The notes below the pieces were generated by a model that saw nothing but the letters and a program-made list of their open reading frames with translations, made no database searches and was not told the origin of the DNA. Of a stretch of DNA of 64,000 bases, positions 26,028-33,481 are shown piece after piece; within the stretch, counting starts at the first letter, position 1; each line of letters begins with the position of its first letter. The position numbers were made by a program, and so were the translations under genes. Location: NCBI GenBank assembly GCA_944354125.1, contig CALVPT010000002.1:62001-126000 (forward strand), in the 5' to 3' direction. The stretch is from an uncultured Clostridia bacterium (GTDB taxonomy: Bacteria > Bacillota > Clostridia > Christensenellales > Borkfalkiaceae).

Positions 26028-27233
26028 TCAGATATTTCCCAGTCGCATCTTGAAGTCGTCATAGCCGAACGACGCTATGCGGCTGAGCGTTCCGCCCCTG
26101 CCCCTCTTCCAGATGTCGGGCAGGGGCATTCCGTTGAATGTATTGTTCTTGCAGGTGGTATATATAGCCATGTCGCCGAACAGTACAATGTCGCCGATTT
26201 CGGGGCGTTTTGACAGTTCGTAGTCGCCTATGATATCGCCTGCAAGGCAGGTAGGCCCCGCAAACCTGACGCTTACGTTCCCCCCGTCGCCGTTGTCCAG
26301 AAGGGGCGGCGTGTACGGCATTTCGATTACGTCGGGCATATGGCAGGCGGCGCTGACGTCTGTTATTGCAGTGGTTATGCCGCAATTTTCGACGACGTCC
26401 AGCACGCGCGATGCCAGAAAGCCTGCATTGAGCGCGACAGCCTCGCCAGGTTCGAGATAAACCTGAACGCCCCATTTGCCGTGAGCCTCGACGAGAATTC
26501 TCTCCAGCCGCGCGATGTCGTAGCCGCTTTTCGTTATGTGGTGACCGCCGCCCATGTTCAGCCATCTGAGCTTTGGCAGAACGTCGGCGAACTGTTCCTC
26601 CACCGCCCTGTAAGTCACCTCCAACGCGTCCGAGTCCTGTTCGCACAGCGTATGGAAGTGCAGACCGTCGAGAAGAGATATGAGCTCCTCCGTCATCTCC
26701 TTGTCCCACGCCGCGCGCGTCGTGCCCAGGCGGCTGCCGTCTGCGCAGGGGTCATATATGGCGTGCCCCTCCTGCGTGGATATGCGGGGATTTATCCTCA
26801 GCCCCACGCTCTTGCCGCGCGCCTTTGCGCGCGCCCCGAACTTTTTAAGCTGTGAGGGAGAATTGAATACTATGTGGTCGGCGTAAGACAACAGCTCTTC
26901 GAACTCGTCGTCGCGGTAGGCGGCGCAGAATACGTGCACCTCGCCGCAGGGCATCTCCTCTTTGCCGAGGCGCGCCTCAAAAAGTCCGCTCGCCTCTGTA
27001 CCGCTGAGATACTCCGATATGAGCGGATAGAAAGCAAAGTTGGAAAAAGCCTTCTGCGCGAGCAATATCTTTGCGCCCGTGCGCTCCGAAACGCCCTTGA
27101 GTATTTTAAGATTGTCTTCGAGCGCGCCCTCGTCTATTATGTAGCAGGGCGTCTTAAGCCCCCCGAAGAGCTTTTCGGGACTTGCACCCCCGAGCGCTTT
27201 AAATACGGGCGAATTTATCGGCTGTCCCTTCAT
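26028..27233 (-). CDS. nspC: Carboxynorspermidine/carboxyspermidine decarboxylase (NspC-like)
   Basis: A PLP enzyme of the alanine-racemase fold that removes CO2 from carboxyspermidine to give spermidine. The 401 residues show the PLP lysine in ILLAQKAFSNFAFYPLISEY, the glycine-rich phosphate loop NMGGGHHITK, and the active-site cysteine motif GPTCLAGDIIGDYEL. It overlaps the start region of the upstream CASDH gene by one base and is the last gene of the polyamine operon. A related decarboxylase acts on carboxyaminopropylagmatine in some bacteria; sequence reading alone cannot separate the two. Confidence 0.9.
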   Translation of the reverse strand: MKGQPINSPVFKALGGASPEKLFGGLKTPCYIIDEGALEDNLKILKGVSERTGAKILLAQKAFSNFAFYPLISEYLSGTEASGLFEARLGKEEMPCGEVHVFCAAYRDDEFEELLSYADHIVFNSPSQLKKFGARAKARGKSVGLRINPRISTQEGHAIYDPCADGSRLGTTRAAWDKEMTEELISLLDGLHFHTLCEQDSDALEVTYRAVEEQFADVLPKLRWLNMGGGHHITKSGYDIARLERILVEAHGKWGVQVYLEPGEAVALNAGFLASRVLDVVENCGITTAITDVSAACHMPDVIEMPYTPPLLDNGDGGNVSVRFAGPTCLAGDIIGDYELSKRPEIGDIVLFGDMAIYTTCKNNTFNGMPLPDIWKRGRGGTLSRIASFGYDDFKMRLGNI

Positions 27234-28492
27234 CAGTCCACCAGTTCGGGGTTATCGCTCTCTTTATAGGGCAGACCGTACTTAAAGAGCGCCTCGAGGA
27301 AGGGATCGGGGTCGAACTCCTCGACGGTATGCACTCCCGTCTTAGTCCACTTGCCCGTAAGCAGCATGAGCGCGCCGCACATTGCAGGGACGCCCGTGGT
27401 ATAACTTATCGCCTGACTTCCCACTTCCCTGTAACATTCCTGATGGTCGCAGACGTTGTAGATATAGTAACTCCTCTTCTTTCCGTCCTTTTCGCCCGTG
27501 AATATGCAGCCGATATTGGTCTTGCCGTGCGTTCTGGGGCCGAGCGTTGCAGGGTCGGGAAGGAGCGCCTTCAGAAACTTTATGGGCACTATCTCCCTTC
27601 CCTCGAACATTATGGGGGTCGTAGAGAGCATTCCCACGTCCTCGAGGCACTTCATGTGCGTGAGGTAGCTCTGACCGAAGGTCATGAAAAAGCGTATTCT
27701 CTTAGCCTCGGGGATATTTACTGCTATGGACTCGATTTCCTCGTGGTGGAGAAGATACATATCCTTTTTGCCCACCTCGTCGAAGTCGTACTCCCTCTTT
27801 ATGCTCATGGCAGGTATTTCCACCCACTTGCCGTCCTGCCAGTAGCTGCCCGGTGCGGACACTTCGCGAAGATTTACTTCGGGATTGAAGTTGGTGGCAA
27901 AGGCATAGCCGTGGTCGCCGCCGTTGCAGTCGAGTATGTCTATGGTGTCGATTTTGTCGAACTTATGCTTCTTTGCATATGCGCAGTACGCCTGGGTTAC
28001 GCCCGGGTCGAAGCCGCAGCCGAGGAGCGCGACAAGCCCCGCCTTTTCGAACTTTTTCCTGTATGCCCACTGCCACGAGTAGTCGAAATATGCCGAAAAG
28101 CCCTTTTCTTTGCACCTCTTTTCGTATATCTTTCTCCACTCGGGGTCGTCGGTATCCTCGGGCTCGTAGTTGGCGGTATCCAGATAGTTGACGCCGCAGG
28201 CAAGGCAGGCGTCCATTATGGTTAAATCCTGATAGGGCAGCGCGATGTTCATTACGAGGTCGGGCTTGTAGCTTTTTATGAGCGCGATGACCTCCTCCGT
28301 CCTGTCGGCGTCCACTTTTGCGGTGGTTATCCTTGTCGCCGTCCTGCCCTTAAGGCTTTCGGCGAGCTTGTCGCACTTTTCCTTGGTTCTGCTTGCAATG
28401 CAGATATCCGTAAACACCTCGCTGACCTGACAGCACTTTCTTATTGCGACGTTTGCCACGCCGCCGCAGCCTATAATCAATACTTTGCTCAT
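27233..28492 (-). CDS. Carboxynorspermidine synthase-like (CASDH) saccharopine-dehydrogenase family
   Basis: An NADPH-dependent enzyme that joins aspartate semialdehyde to a diamine (putrescine) to form carboxyspermidine. The 419 residues begin with a Rossmann loop KVLIIGCGGVANVAIRKC. They carry family segments NIALPYQDLTIMDACLACGVNYLDTANYEPE and LLGCGFDPGVTQAYCAY. It is in the operon with nspC, its obligate partner, 21 bases after speB. Agmatine-using relatives (CAPADH) are an alternative. Confidence 0.9.
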   Translation of the reverse strand: MSKVLIIGCGGVANVAIRKCCQVSEVFTDICIASRTKEKCDKLAESLKGRTATRITTAKVDADRTEEVIALIKSYKPDLVMNIALPYQDLTIMDACLACGVNYLDTANYEPEDTDDPEWRKIYEKRCKEKGFSAYFDYSWQWAYRKKFEKAGLVALLGCGFDPGVTQAYCAYAKKHKFDKIDTIDILDCNGGDHGYAFATNFNPEVNLREVSAPGSYWQDGKWVEIPAMSIKREYDFDEVGKKDMYLLHHEEIESIAVNIPEAKRIRFFMTFGQSYLTHMKCLEDVGMLSTTPIMFEGREIVPIKFLKALLPDPATLGPRTHGKTNIGCIFTGEKDGKKRSYYIYNVCDHQECYREVGSQAISYTTGVPAMCGALMLLTGKWTKTGVHTVEEFDPDPFLEALFKYGLPYKESDNPELVD

Positions 28493-28513
28493 AATAATCT
28501 CCGTAAATTTTAT

Positions 28514-29371
28514 TTATTTGTTGAGTGCGAGTAAAAACTCCCTGAGTACCTTGCACGCCATTGCAGTGGACGCGCCGCTTGCATCCAGCGAGGGCGCAAG
28601 CTCGTTGACGTCCGCGCCGACGACGTTGAGGGTGCAGACCCTGACAAGCGCAGCCAGGAGCTCTTTGAACGTCACGCCGCCCGCTTCGGGAGTGCCCGTG
28701 CCCGAAAAACAAGAGGGGTCGAGACAGTCGAGGTCGACGGTTATGTATACGGGCACGCCGCTTTCCTCGAGCTTTGCCACCGTGTCGTCGAGCCCGTCGA
28801 AGGAGAAGGGATGCATATGGGTATGCGCCCTTGCAAACTCAAACTCCGACCTGTCGCCGCTCCTTATGCAGAACTGGTGTATTTTTCCGTCGCCGACGAG
28901 CTCGTGACAGCGCCTTATGACGCAGGCGTGCGAGAGCTTTGCGCCGAGGTAGTCGTCCCTAAGGTCTGCGTGAGCGTCGAAATGAATCATATTGAGGTCG
29001 GGATATGCCTTGAATACCTCCCTCACCGCGCCCAGGGTCACCAGGTGTTCGCCGCCTATCAGGAAGGGGAATTTGCCGTCTTTGAGTATGCGCGAAGTGC
29101 GCGCCGAGATGTCTTTGAGCGCCAGTCTGCTGTCGCCCAAGCACAGCTCCAGATCTCCGCTGTCGAATACCTTTATGTCGGTCAGATCTCTGTCCTGATA
29201 GGGGCTGTACGTCTCTATTCCGAAACTCTCCGCGCGCATTGCCGACGGACCGAAACGCGCGCCCGGGCGGTAGCTTGTAGTGCAGTCGAAGGGCGCGCCG
29301 AAAAGGACGATATCCGCGTCCTTATAGTCCGAATCGCAGGCTATGAATGTCTGTACGTTTGGCTTTAACAT
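28514..29371 (-). CDS. speB: Agmatinase-like ureohydrolase
   Basis: Manganese enzyme of the arginase fold, expected to hydrolyse agmatine to putrescine and urea. In its 285 residues the metal-binding motifs are complete: GGEHLVTLGAV, MIHFDAHADLRDDYLG and VDLDCLDPS. The GGEH form occurs in Bacillus SpeB. The gene lies one base after speE. If the operon uses the aminopropylagmatine route, the same enzyme class would act on aminopropylagmatine and yield spermidine directly. Confidence 0.9.
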   Translation of the reverse strand: MLKPNVQTFIACDSDYKDADIVLFGAPFDCTTSYRPGARFGPSAMRAESFGIETYSPYQDRDLTDIKVFDSGDLELCLGDSRLALKDISARTSRILKDGKFPFLIGGEHLVTLGAVREVFKAYPDLNMIHFDAHADLRDDYLGAKLSHACVIRRCHELVGDGKIHQFCIRSGDRSEFEFARAHTHMHPFSFDGLDDTVAKLEESGVPVYITVDLDCLDPSCFSGTGTPEAGGVTFKELLAALVRVCTLNVVGADVNELAPSLDASGASTAMACKVLREFLLALNK

Positions 29372-29372
29372 A

Positions 29373-30224
29373 TCACTCTACCTCCTTGAGCATTCTCTCC
29401 AGAAAGGCAGGCAGATAGAACGAGCCTATGTGCAGCCTTGTCGTATAGTAGTTCGTCGTCAGCCCCAGCGCTTCCCACCTGTCGGCGCGGAAGTCGTCTA
29501 TGGGGTGATATTTTTTGCTGGCAAAGCCGAACAGCCAGTAGCCTGCGGCATATGTGGGGATATGCGCCTGGTACACCCTGCTTATGGGGAAAGTGCTGAC
29601 TATCCTGTGGTGCGAGCGGCGCATTGCGTCGGCGTCGTGTTTATAGAAGGGGCTGCCCTGCTGATTGACCATTATTCCGTCGTCCCTGAGCGCATTGTAG
29701 CATACGCCGTAGAATTCGCGCGTGAAGTAGCCCTCAAGCGGACCGAACGGGTCGGTGGTATCGACGATTATGAGGTCGTAATTTGCGTGGCAACGGCGCA
29801 AAAACCTCAATGCGTTGTCGTAATATATGTGCACGCGCTCGTTGTCCATCTCCCTTGCGTTTTCGGGAAGGTATACCCTGCAGACGTCTATTACGTCGGG
29901 GTCCATCTCGACGAGGTCGATCTTTTCAATCGTCTTATAGCGCACGAGCTCCCTTACGACTCCGCCGTCGCCCGCGCCTATCACGAGGACGTCGCGTATG
30001 TCGGGATGCACGGACATGGGCACGTGGGTTATCATCTCGTCGTAGATAAATTCGTCCCTTTCGGTTAAAAGCACGTTGCCGTCGAGGGCGAGCACTCTGC
30101 CGAATTCGGGCGTATCGAAGACGTCTATCTGCTGATAGCTCGACTTCTTTGAATAGAGGTGTCTGTTGACCCTTATGCTGTGTTTTACGTCGGGGGCGTG
30201 AAATTCGCTGAACCAGAGTTCCAT
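29373..30224 (-). CDS. speE: Spermidine synthase-like aminopropyltransferase
   Basis: Transfers an aminopropyl group from decarboxylated SAM to a diamine. The 283-residue protein has the N-terminal ELWFSEFHAPDVKHSIRVN strand region. The SAM-binding motif VLVIGAGDGGVVREL is at about 79, with DLVEMDPDVIDVCRVYLP and IIVDTTDPFGPLEG following. The donor needs SAM decarboxylase (SpeD), which is not in this operon. Having SpeE beside the CASDH-CASDC pair means two spermidine routes in one operon, or a SpeE with a changed role. It starts 13 bases after the decarboxylase gene. Confidence 0.9.
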   Translation of the reverse strand: MELWFSEFHAPDVKHSIRVNRHLYSKKSSYQQIDVFDTPEFGRVLALDGNVLLTERDEFIYDEMITHVPMSVHPDIRDVLVIGAGDGGVVRELVRYKTIEKIDLVEMDPDVIDVCRVYLPENAREMDNERVHIYYDNALRFLRRCHANYDLIIVDTTDPFGPLEGYFTREFYGVCYNALRDDGIMVNQQGSPFYKHDADAMRRSHHRIVSTFPISRVYQAHIPTYAAGYWLFGFASKKYHPIDDFRADRWEALGLTTNYYTTRLHIGSFYLPAFLERMLKEVE

Positions 30225-30237
30225 TTGCCCATTCTCC

Positions 30238-31692
30238 TTATGCGAGCACGTTTATGTTTTCTATTTCGGGGTCCTCGGGACCTGTCATTGAACAGCCCTT
30301 GGCCTTGGCGTATTCGATATACTGAATAATCTCGCCCGTCACCCTTTCGCCGGGGGCGAGGATGGGAATTCCCGGGGGATAGCACATTATGAACTCGCTG
30401 CATACGCAGCCTATGCTGTCCTTCAGCGGCACGCTCTTTTTGTTGGCATAGAACGCCTGCTGGGGGCTTATTACGACCTCGGGCGCGAGATATTCCTGAC
30501 TTAAGAGGCCGTAGCTGTCCTTCTGGTACCTTCTGCGGATTTCGGCAAGCGCGCTTACAAGCCTTTCGAGTTCCTGCATTCTGTCGCCTATCGAGAGATA
30601 TGCAAGTATGTTGCCTATGTCGCCGAACTCTATCTGAATGTCGTATTCGTCCCTGAGAAGGTCGTATACCTCAATGCCTGCAAGTCCTATGTCGCGCGTG
30701 TGCACGCTGAGCTTGGTGGAGTCGAAATCGAATATGGAATCGCCATTTATGAGCTCCCTGCCGAACGCATAATAGCCGCCGACGGCGTTTATCTCCTCCC
30801 TTGCGTAGTTTGCCATCTCGACGACTCTCTTGAAGACCTGCCTGCCCTTAAGGGCGAGGTTGCGCCTGCTTATGTCAAGGCTGGACATCAGAAGATAGCT
30901 GCCCGAAGTCGTCTGGGTGAGGTTTATGATCTGGCGGACGTAGCCGCTGTTTATGTCCGGGCCCGTGAGGAGCAGGCTGGACTGCGTAAGACTTCCGCCG
31001 CTCTTGTGCATGGATACGGCCGCCATGTCGGCGCCCGCAGCCATGGCGGAGACGGGCATGTTTTCGCCGAAATAGAAGTGCGTGCCGTGCGCCTCGTCCG
31101 CAAGGCAGTACATGCCTGCGCGGTGAGCCATGCCGACTATGGCTTTAAGGTCGCTGCATATGCCGTAGTATGTGGGATTGTTGACGAGGACGGCGACGGC
31201 GTCTGGGTGCGCGGCGATTGCCTTTGCGACCTGCTCCCTCTTCATGCCGAGGGATATGCCGAGCTTGACGTCTACTTCGGGATTGACATATACGGGAATG
31301 GCGCCGCAGAGTACGAGCGCGTTGATAACGCTCCTGTGGACGTTTCTGGGCAGAATTATCTTGTCACCCCTCTTGCAGACCGAGAGTATCATGCTCTGCA
31401 CGGCGCTCGTCGTGCCGCCTACCATAAGAAAGGCGTGGGCGGCGCCGAAAGCCTCGGCGGCGAGCTCCTCCGCCTCCCTTATGACCGATACGGGATGACA
31501 GAGGTTGTCCAGCGGCTTCATTGAGTTGACGTCTATGGATACGCACTGTTCGCCGAGGAATGCCGTAAGTTCGGGGTTGCCCCTGCCGCGCTTATGCCCG
31601 GGGACGTCGAAGGGCACTACCCTCATTTCCCTGAACATCTGCAGCGCCTCGTATATGGGCGCTCTGCTCTGATTCAATATTTTGCTCTCCAC
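30238..31692 (-). CDS. speA: PLP-dependent arginine (Orn/Lys/Arg) decarboxylase
   Basis: Fold-type I PLP decarboxylase, most likely making agmatine from arginine because an agmatinase follows. About 484 residues. Early motif VVPFDVPGHKRGRGNPEL; PLP site DEAHGTHFYFGE and the Schiff-base lysine in VSMHKSGGSLTQSS. A frame from ATG 31743 is open, but it has no ribosome binding site and its first codons form a terminator hairpin. I therefore prefer GTG at 31692 with GAGG upstream, or TTG at 31677. It heads the polyamine operon behind a long leader. Lysine or ornithine as substrate cannot be excluded. Confidence 0.87.
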   Translation of the reverse strand: MESKILNQSRAPIYEALQMFREMRVVPFDVPGHKRGRGNPELTAFLGEQCVSIDVNSMKPLDNLCHPVSVIREAEELAAEAFGAAHAFLMVGGTTSAVQSMILSVCKRGDKIILPRNVHRSVINALVLCGAIPVYVNPEVDVKLGISLGMKREQVAKAIAAHPDAVAVLVNNPTYYGICSDLKAIVGMAHRAGMYCLADEAHGTHFYFGENMPVSAMAAGADMAAVSMHKSGGSLTQSSLLLTGPDINSGYVRQIINLTQTTSGSYLLMSSLDISRRNLALKGRQVFKRVVEMANYAREEINAVGGYYAFGRELINGDSIFDFDSTKLSVHTRDIGLAGIEVYDLLRDEYDIQIEFGDIGNILAYLSIGDRMQELERLVSALAEIRRRYQKDSYGLLSQEYLAPEVVISPQQAFYANKKSVPLKDSIGCVCSEFIMCYPPGIPILAPGERVTGEIIQYIEYAKAKGCSMTGPEDPEIENINVLA

Positions 31693-31707
31693 CTTCTGTA
31701 CCTCACG

Positions 31708-31741
31708 AAAAAAGCGCAAGCTGCATAAACACAACTTGCGC
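31708..31741 (-). terminator. Terminator hairpin in the leader of the polyamine operon
   Basis: On the minus strand GCGCAAG/CTTGCGC (31741-31735 with 31720-31714) is followed directly by six T (31713-31708), just before the ribosome binding site of speA. Its place at the end of a long leader suggests transcription attenuation. Confidence 0.75.
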
Positions 31742-32077
31742 ATAAAAAAATCACATTCCTGTCCGTATCGGCGGATAACTCAGGCCGACGACGCAGAGAA
31801 GACCTCCGCGGATAATAACGTCTTGAATGGATTGGCATACAGAGTCTATATTTGCAAACAATTTTACTACTCTTATTGACCGTTTCACAAGTTTGCGCGT
31901 CTACGCATTTCGGTTATAAAGTAACCAACTTATAAAATTTGAGCTTTTAACTCAATCAATAAGGCGGAAAACCGCCTATCGGCAGCGGACCCGGCTGTCC
32001 GTATGGCCTCGACTTTAATTACTTAAAGTGGTCCTTTGATAATTGCTTGGAAGACTCTATGCAATAGAAGTTATCCG
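31742..32077 (-). ncRNA. Structured leader of the polyamine operon, candidate riboswitch or attenuator
   Basis: About 335 nt run from the promoter start to the terminator hairpin, with no gene. Long-range pairing closes it: AGTTATCCG (32069-32077) is the exact complement of CGGATAACT (31772-31780). Inside that, AGACTCTATGC (32052-32062) pairs with 31835-31847 with only a two-base bulge. Local hairpins include AGGCGG/CCGCCT, TTGAG/CTCAA and ACTTTAA/TTAAAGT. The stretch ATACGGACAG occurs twice. It does not show the conserved motifs I know for SAM, lysine, T-box, TPP, cobalamin or guanidine-I leaders. The ligand is unknown; a polyamine, arginine or SAM would fit the genes. Confidence 0.6.
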
Positions 32078-32083
32078 ACTATG

Positions 32084-32112
32084 ATTATATTTTGTGCGCG
32101 CCCCTTTGTCAA
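32084..32112 (-). promoter_or_regulatory. Perfect consensus promoter of the polyamine operon
   Basis: Minus strand TTGACA (32112-32107), 17-base spacer, TATAAT (32089-32084). Confidence 0.9.
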
Positions 32113-32226
32113 TTGTTTTGAGGCACAATATTATTTTTTCGCGCGGACAATCGGGCGGAACCATGCGCATATGCGCGCAAATCGCTTCGGTTACATATTT
32201 TTCACATTCAAAACCCCCGAAAATGC

Positions 32227-32299: not shown

Positions 32300-33481
32300 A
32301 TGAAGGGCAAAAAGAAGACCTGGCACAAAAAAAGACACGCGTTTTACTTTCAGCTTCAGCGCTTTTTAGTCGGCATTTACGTCAGATTCGCCTACCGTTA
32401 CCGCGGCAAAAAATTTGACGACGGCGGCAGACAGTACCTGTACGTATTCAACCACCAGACGCCGCTAGACCAACACCTTTTATATCTTTCGCTGAGAAGA
32501 CTGCCCTACACGCTGGCAAGCGAGGACCTGTTCACGATGGGGCTGGTTTCAAAGATAATTAAGCACGCGCACGCGCCCATACCCATAAAGAAGTCGGAAA
32601 ACGACTTCACGGCGGTTAAGACCTGCGTGAGAATTGTAAAAGAGGGCTGTTCGATAGCCCTTTCGCCCGAGGGAAACAGGACGTTTACGGGCGAGACTGT
32701 GCACATAAAGCCGTCGGTTGCAAAGCTGATAAAGCTTTTAAGGCTCCCCGTTGCGGTATTCATTGTCCGCGGCGGATACGGCGTCATTCCCAGATATGCA
32801 GACAAGCCCCGACGCGGCAGAGTGACGGGCAGCGTCGAGAGAGTAATAGAGTACGAGGAGTACAAAAACCTTTCGGACGAGGAGTTGTATAACCTTATAA
32901 AGGACGCCCTTCACGTAGACGAGAGCGAGACCTCCCGTACCACTTCGCCGCGCAGGGCGGAATTCATGGAGAGGGCGGTATACGTATGCCCCTCCTGCGG
33001 CGCCGTGGGCACCATACATTCGGAGGGCAACCGCATAGGCTGCTCGCATTGCGGAATTTCGGCAGAGGTCGGAGAGGACATGCACTTTGGTCCCTCCTTC
33101 CCCGTAAGGACTGTAAAGGAATGGACGGACAGGCAAAACGAATGGGTCAACGCCCTCGAAGTCGACGGTAGCGGTAAGGCAATATTTGCCGAGCGCGTCA
33201 GACTGAGGGTACTCCTTAGGAAAGAGGGCAAAAAGCAGGTACTTGCCGAGGACGCGGAGGCGCGCATATTTGCGGACAGGCTGGAGGTGGGCGACTATAC
33301 CTTTGCCTATCCCGAAGTGACGGCAATGACCGTATGCGGCAGAAAGCGGCTTGACTTCTACCTGGGCGGAAAGACGTATCAGCTGACGGCAGGCAATACC
33401 TTCTGCGCACTGAAATATGTAAACATATATTACAACTATAAAAATAAAAAGGAGAACGGCGATGGTTTTCTCGGCATTTAG
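32300..33481 (+). CDS. PlsC-type acyltransferase with C-terminal zinc ribbon
   Basis: The N-terminal 210 residues are a 1-acylglycerol-3-phosphate acyltransferase-like domain: the catalytic NHQTPLDQ (HX4D) near residue 52 and SPEGNRTFTG (EGxR-like) near 120. After residue 220 comes a zinc ribbon CPSCGAVGTIHSEGN...CSHCGISAEVG, then about 130 residues of beta-rich sequence with no named family. The added ribbon and tail are unusual for PlsC. There is no clear membrane helix, only a basic N terminus (KGKKKTWHKKRH). A GGAGG site is 11 bases before the ATG. The 3' end overlaps the next gene by 20 bases. Confidence 0.82.
   Translation: MKGKKKTWHKKRHAFYFQLQRFLVGIYVRFAYRYRGKKFDDGGRQYLYVFNHQTPLDQHLLYLSLRRLPYTLASEDLFTMGLVSKIIKHAHAPIPIKKSENDFTAVKTCVRIVKEGCSIALSPEGNRTFTGETVHIKPSVAKLIKLLRLPVAVFIVRGGYGVIPRYADKPRRGRVTGSVERVIEYEEYKNLSDEELYNLIKDALHVDESETSRTTSPRRAEFMERAVYVCPSCGAVGTIHSEGNRIGCSHCGISAEVGEDMHFGPSFPVRTVKEWTDRQNEWVNALEVDGSGKAIFAERVRLRVLLRKEGKKQVLAEDAEARIFADRLEVGDYTFAYPEVTAMTVCGRKRLDFYLGGKTYQLTAGNTFCALKYVNIYYNYKNKKENGDGFLGI

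Follow-up and report, generated by a model that had tools for sequence, protein, structure and literature searches.

According to the available text of Salvail et al. 2023 (PMC10853860), the existence of convincing polyamine riboswitches was long in dispute and one class is known. This class is a spermidine riboswitch derived from SAM-I, an off switch that uses a terminator and an antiterminator and is found before ldcC, speE, speB and speD (PMC10853860). The pneumococcal RNA F59, also named srn235, SN20 or Spd-sr49, is placed between SP0915 and SP0916 in the available portions of three sources (PMC3395615, PMC4387999, PMC12323649). The listings in those portions give F59 as 82 nt (PMC3395615) and Spd-sr49 as 869478-869804, or 327 nt (PMC12323649). 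The available text of the latter dropped other entries as cis-regulators and retained Spd-sr49 (PMC12323649). Here, we compare with these systems the leader RNA of a polyamine operon.

The polyamine operon and its leader

The window (the whole 64,000-nt stretch of DNA that was analysed) contains an operon on the minus strand in the order speA-speE-speB-carboxynorspermidine synthase-nspC, downstream of a promoter, a leader and a terminator. The first gene is a speA-like Orn/Lys/Arg decarboxylase (30238-31692; Pfam PF01276, 240.8 bits). It is followed by speE, a polyamine aminopropyltransferase (29373-30224; NF002010, 354 bits, cutoff 260), and speB, an agmatinase (28514-29371; TIGR01230, 273 bits, cutoff 174). 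The last two genes are a carboxynorspermidine (carboxyspermidine) synthase-like gene (27233-28492; NF043000, 411.6 bits, under its cutoff of 800; PF16653, PF03435) and an nspC-like carboxynorspermidine decarboxylase gene (26028-27233; TIGR01047, 398.2 bits, just under its cutoff of 409). On sequence inspection, speA likely starts at the GTG at 31692-31690, with the ribosome-binding site GAGG at 31704-31701 (together 31690-31704, minus strand). The start at 31743 given by the ORF-listing program overlaps the terminator. A search for speD in the window's genome, which is 97% complete, was negative; the family model was positive in 8 of 14 control genomes. The stretch 26028-30224 thus combines speE and the carboxynorspermidine synthase/nspC pair in one operon, yet in a genome without detectable speD.

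The sequence-only reading had described a perfect promoter, a foldable leader and a terminator with six T ahead of speA, and all three were borne out. The sigma-70 promoter, TTGACA-N17-TATAAT (32112-32084, minus strand), agrees with the consensus at 12/12 positions, from which we infer a transcription start at ~32077. The leader folds better than 100/100 dinucleotide shuffles (z = −3.47). It ends in a GC-rich intrinsic terminator hairpin, GCGCAAGUUGU...GCAGCUUGCGC (31741-31714, minus strand; −16.9 kcal/mol), with a U6 tract directly 3' of it (31713-31708). We also observed a plus-strand promoter-like site, TTGTCA-17-TATTAT (10/12; 32106-32134), which overlaps the speA promoter and faces a gene at 32300. 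The two divergent promoters may compete with each other.

Extent, structure and variants of the conserved RNA

RF02440 (SpF59_sRNA, or ldcC RNA) was the only Rfam family matched at gathering in the 64-kb window (31979-32034, minus strand). The match scored 67.7 bits, above the gathering threshold of 37.2, and covered the whole model (1-54 of 54). With the leader searched at E ≤ 1, the only other match was a sub-threshold hit to DUF805 (19.5 bits, E = 0.62). The sequence-only reading had seen no motif of a known riboswitch class and had proposed an Rfam search. Taken as a denial of any known motif, that statement is wrong, as the search gives a catalogued one, RF02440. It holds for validated riboswitch classes, none of which was matched, and no known riboswitch class with another ligand was found in the window.

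We observed that conservation extends well past this match, from ~50 nt upstream to ~170 nt downstream of the core, with the 3' end at GACTC. The conserved RNA is ~235 nt long, and the 54-nt RF02440 model is one module of the whole. Loci were gathered from RF02440 matches (18/398 phylum and 42/301 family genomes) and from an exact 23-nt pattern, which gave at least 118 stretches. The core was located in 163 of the collected loci, pattern matches listed included; some loci duplicate one genome (e.g. L026 = L069). Two further RF02440 matches, L009 and L016, were missed by the exact pattern and fall outside the 163; both are followed by speD. The taxa among the pattern matches listed are Firmicutes (Bacilli, Clostridia and Negativicutes) and one Synergistaceae contig.

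A full-length covariance model of 235 positions, R1, was built from 23 loci; its helix P1b is weaker because the underlying alignment, A2, is off by one column around L076. In the window, R1 matched 31837-32068 on the minus strand (218.1 bits, E = 3.5e-62), an element of type A, with the P2 module. R1 also matched 87/87 sources run, all of which carry the full-length element. In the phylum sample R1 was found in 24/398 genomes and was negative in 374, compared with 18/398 for RF02440; in the family sample it was found in 73/301, compared with 42/301.

The structure was tested on an alignment made by MAFFT without structure (A1), on which a single 59-pair structure was written; 75 of the 146 usable loci were retained after removal of near-duplicates. 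Paired cells reached 89.7%, above the shuffled (83.9 ± 0.3%) and slid (at most 41.5%) controls. Changes on both sides occurred in 35/59 pairs (shuffled, 20.0 ± 2.3). The covariation score was 0.192 (shuffled, 0.108 ± 0.004; slid, at most 0.072; 0/500 shuffles as high). The 23-locus alignment showed the same trend in pairing and covariation. A conserved structured RNA with covariation, the check that the first reading had named for homologous leaders, is thus present. Covariation was strongest in the P2 outer pair, P2a, P3, P8 and some of P1. In P4 and P6 there is so little variation that covariation hardly tests them, and their support comes from pairing.

All helices lie on the minus strand. 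The closing helix P1a pairs GCATAGAGTCT (32062-32052) with AGACTCTGTATGC (31847-31835). It is the 11-bp long-range helix of the sequence-only reading, real with a 2-nt bulge, in the minimum free energy (MFE) fold and conserved. The 9-bp helix proposed with it fared differently: the complementary sequences CGGATAACT (32077-32069) and AGTTATCCG (31780-31772) are present, but they do not pair in the MFE fold. This helix was rejected as part of the conserved element, because among the close relatives printed only L035 keeps it. Inside P1, the P2 module (P2, P2a and P2b; 32034-31987) carries the near-invariant AGGCCATACGGACAGCCGGGTC and is optional in relatives. It is followed by the P3 hairpin AGGCGGUUUUCCGCCU (31977-31962), in which 6/6 pairs show changes on both sides in relatives. 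P4 pairs UUAUUGA (31962-31956) with UCAAUAA (31879-31873), and 98.5% of its cells are paired. Within P4 lie the P5 hairpin GAGUUAAAAGCUC (31953-31941; alignment helices 9-11), the P6 5' strand AUAAGU (31933-31928), the P7 hairpin GGUUACUUUAUAACC (31926-31912; alignment helices 13-14) and the P8 hairpin UGCGUAGACGCGCA (31907-31894). P6 pairs with ACUUGU at 31892-31887 (97.7% of cells paired; two pairs changed on both sides). P8 has changes on both sides in 5/5 pairs, with only 64.8% of cells paired in the structure-blind alignment. The conserved unpaired GAGUAGUAAAA (31872-31862) links P4 to P1 and is retained in loci without P2.

Just ahead of the terminator, at 31768-31759, the window holds an exact repeat of ATACGGACAG from the P2 module. 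This copy seemed a duplicated aptamer core, but the nearest relative, L035, has no copy there and we treated it as chance. When the exact motif was looked for over as much as 1,500 nt of downstream sequence, the other second copies of ACGGACAG among the matches listed were distant, at +984 (L023) and +1036 (L044).

We picked 20 family loci (L219-L238) by hand from the 31 genomes positive for R1 and negative for RF02440 (73 minus 42). The P2 module was missing in 20/20. By eye, these loci retain P4 and the P5/P6 region, together with the P1 strands, a hairpin resembling P3 and the 3' block CUUGU.AAA.G.UCAAUAAGAGUA.UAA; a few of them, such as L230, L236 and L238, have a changed P5 or P7. The gene that follows them is speA, speD or potA. 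In 14 loci without RF02440, Rfam matched no family except tRNA. Because relatives lack the module and keep the remainder, the RF02440 model sits on an optional module. Conservation as strict as that of the 23-nt block usually marks a ligand site. It is a puzzle that so near-invariant a module is cleanly gone in many relatives, while the gene context of the leader is unchanged.

The R1-only matches of the phylum sample were more varied than those of the family. L181 keeps the ACGGACA core with differing flanks, L182 has other sequence in place of the core, and L188 and L189 retain little beyond P1 and the 3' block. These last two, from one genus, are mini-versions (L188:1501-1746 and L189:1501-1707) that consist of P1, a ACUUGUGAA...AAUAAGAGUAGUAAAAG block and an arm of the CGCAAGUG type; a promoter-like site immediately precedes them and speD follows. 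They represent a switch that is either reduced to a minimum or in decay. One genome, G497, carries two copies of the element (C1:80749-80963 and C14:68968-69173), one RF02440-positive and the other module-less before speD (L237). The window's SpeA (30238-31692) is 93-96% identical to those of L021 and L035 and ~73-76% identical to those of the module-less loci L223-L233 from the same family/genus. This pattern of identity hints that operon and leader may have been transferred between lineages.

Gene context, predicted switching and rival explanations

The first downstream gene was polyamine-related in 151/151 classifiable loci, among 163 with pattern matches listed included; in the other 12 the DNA was too short for classification. 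It was a speA-type decarboxylase in 44, speD in 43, carboxynorspermidine synthase in 36 and potA in 28. These classes are single-linkage ORF clusters in which one representative each of speD, carboxynorspermidine synthase and potA was named by NCBIfam (TIGR03331, NF043000 under its cut-off, and NF043075). In the R1-only loci a polyamine gene was likewise first in 26/26 (speA 13, speD 7, potA 6). Spermidine is the shared product or cargo of speA, speD/speE, carboxynorspermidine synthase/nspC and potABC. Judged from gene context, spermidine is the most likely ligand, because import and two different synthesis routes share it. The sequence-only reading had named spermidine, agmatine, arginine or SAM. 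Gene context favours spermidine from that list and disfavours arginine and SAM, given the potA and carboxynorspermidine synthase contexts and the lack of a detected speD.

A terminator was present in 145/146 loci, taken as the most stable hairpin ahead of a U tract within ~344 nt; a few of these picks (such as L051, L061 and L032) probably lie in coding sequence. Hairpins of −15 kcal/mol or below were found in 59/75 non-redundant loci, compared with 6/75 shuffled. One strand of the element, made up of the P8 and P6 3' strands and with ACUUGUG at its end, is complementary to the terminator 5' arm and covaries with it. In the window the switch strand AACUUGUG (31893-31886, minus strand) has alternative partners: P6, or CGCAAGUU in the terminator 5' arm (31740-31733). 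In a blind scan of 74 loci, AACTTGTG ranked 1/219 among 8-nt element windows for complementarity to this arm. Its difference from shuffled arms was −2.94, against a mean of 0.01 (sd 0.62) over all windows. Because AACTTGTG is the P6 3' strand, P6 and the antiterminator pairing are mutually exclusive. An expression platform exclusive with the putative aptamer, as expected of a riboswitch, is thus in place on sequence evidence.

We compared each strand with its own arm and with arms swapped among loci (73 loci, L123 excluded). The mean duplex energy was −10.08 kcal/mol for own arms and −8.09 ± 0.23 for swapped arms (0/5000 as good), a difference inflated by the relatedness of the loci. Swaps within gene class gave −8.60 ± 0.22 against the same own-arm mean (0/5000 as good; 73 loci). 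Shuffled arms gave −5.37 ± 0.25 kcal/mol with an earlier strand placement that was misplaced in L071, L079 and L153. In these three loci UCUGUG replaces CUUGUG, and the arm is changed to match. The carboxynorspermidine synthase loci (n = 3 non-redundant) ran the other way, with own arms at −10.73, worse than swapped arms at −12.0. The module-less loci have a different terminator (AAGACGACC... in the majority), complementary to AAAGGUCACUU; the complementarity peak is shifted a few nt 5' of ACUUGUG, and AAAGGUCACUU overlaps the same strand.

These data suggest that the leader probably attenuates transcription in cis. Most likely it is a metabolite riboswitch, which shuts the polyamine operon at high levels of spermidine or a close polyamine. 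The attenuator or riboswitch architecture seen in the first reading is well supported by covariation, the conserved terminator and the covarying antiterminator. With ligand, the junction would be held closed and P6 would retain ACUUGUG, so that the terminator forms and transcription ends before speA. When ligand is absent, ACUUGUG would pair with the 5' arm of the terminator instead, letting RNA polymerase read through. The MFE fold of the window (−114.8) is the terminated one, and the forced-antiterminator fold is 7.8 kcal/mol worse. As the terminated fold is the more stable, read-through would need co-transcriptional trapping.

The alternative closest to this reading is a riboswitch for another ligand of the pathway, such as putrescine, agmatine, cadaverine, norspermidine or SAM-derived compounds. 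All of these belong to the pathways that the downstream genes serve or are close to them, but the speD, carboxynorspermidine synthase and potABC contexts have only the spermidine/polyamine end product in common. SAM, decarboxylated SAM and MTA are further disfavoured by the window's genome, where the lack of a detectable speD makes SAM-derived ligands unlikely. Putrescine and norspermidine keep some plausibility. Overall, we consider another ligand unlikely. An RNA-binding protein could also select between terminator and antiterminator with no metabolite involved. The near-invariant 23-nt P2 block could serve as its site, and the terminator/antiterminator logic is identical under either sensor. 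This is harder to reconcile with the loss of P2 in each of the 20 fetched loci that keep the remainder and the gene context, and none of the four first-gene classes (decarboxylase, speD, carboxynorspermidine synthase, potA) is a regulator. Known protein-binding attenuators such as pyr manage with a much smaller RNA, and a junction of ~160-235 nt is far above their needs. We regard a protein sensor as improbable.

Arginine and lysine are substrates of the operon enzymes and a terminator is present, which is what attenuation by a leader peptide or a T-box-like element responding to these amino acids would call for. The potA and carboxynorspermidine synthase contexts misfit such sensing. The leader has no uORF with an ATG and at least 8 codons and no conserved-ATG uORF, and its conserved TTG/GTG triplets fall inside conserved helices; a leader peptide was rejected on these grounds. 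No T-box was matched by Rfam in the window at gathering or in the leader at E ≤ 1, and the features of either mechanism were not found. Of all the alternatives, this one has the slimmest chance. Scarcely more probable is a trans-acting small RNA, as the SpF59_sRNA name implies and as the available sources catalogue the pneumococcal homologue (putative sRNA F59/srn235/Spd-sr49). Against this, wherever the downstream gene could be classified the RNA sits 5' of a polyamine gene, and the terminator covaries with the element strand of its own locus. We rejected a trans role as the main one on this cis placement and covariation. Where the Rfam type (Gene; sRNA) would have a stand-alone gene, we find what appears to be a full-length element 5' of polyamine genes. 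The 327 nt listed for the pneumococcal RNA in the available source is about what separates a transcription start from the leader terminator. A prematurely terminated leader would have this length, and the figure fits one ended at its own terminator.

Relation to described RNAs

For the riboswitch reading as a whole, we give about even weight to a specific model. The RNA would be a second natural spermidine/polyamine riboswitch class, unrelated to the first, built as a multi-helix junction with or without P2. Its sensing and switching core would lie in the 3' half, P2 would be an optional tuning or second-input domain, and the published 'sRNA' would be the terminated product. If this is true, a large, separate RNA guarding both spermidine synthesis and import would make the polyamine-riboswitch question directly testable, and the small-RNA label on RF02440 and on pneumococcal F59 would be corrected.

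The ldcC motif was reportedly described in an earlier paper. An open-literature search returned no account of it and found the RNA in sRNA lists alone; the original description lay outside that search, and part of the present account may be in print. Relative to Rfam, three things appear to be new: the architecture of the whole RNA, the branch that lacks the module, and an antiterminator that covaries. The P2 module of the window is a clear member of RF02440 (67.7 bits). In contrast to the 54-nt model, which Rfam types as gene/sRNA, the present RNA is ~235 nt long and has one branch without the Rfam module. The sRNA-gene description of RF02440 would not seem to fit this RNA. Going by the SpF59 name, the pneumococcal F59/srn235/Spd-sr49, located 5' of SP0916 in the available sources, is likely a homologue. 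It is treated as a putative small RNA there, whereas on the present reading it would be what a cis attenuator yields on termination.

Rfam gave no SAM-family match, either for the window at gathering or for the leader at E ≤ 1, and the leader does not show the SAM-I aptamer fold of the described spermidine class. As far as the available text describes that class (PMC10853860), the two RNAs share OFF logic, a terminator/antiterminator and the same kind of genes. They differ in that a SAM-I aptamer is present there and another sequence and architecture here, and in that the window-type RNA also precedes potA and carboxynorspermidine synthase.
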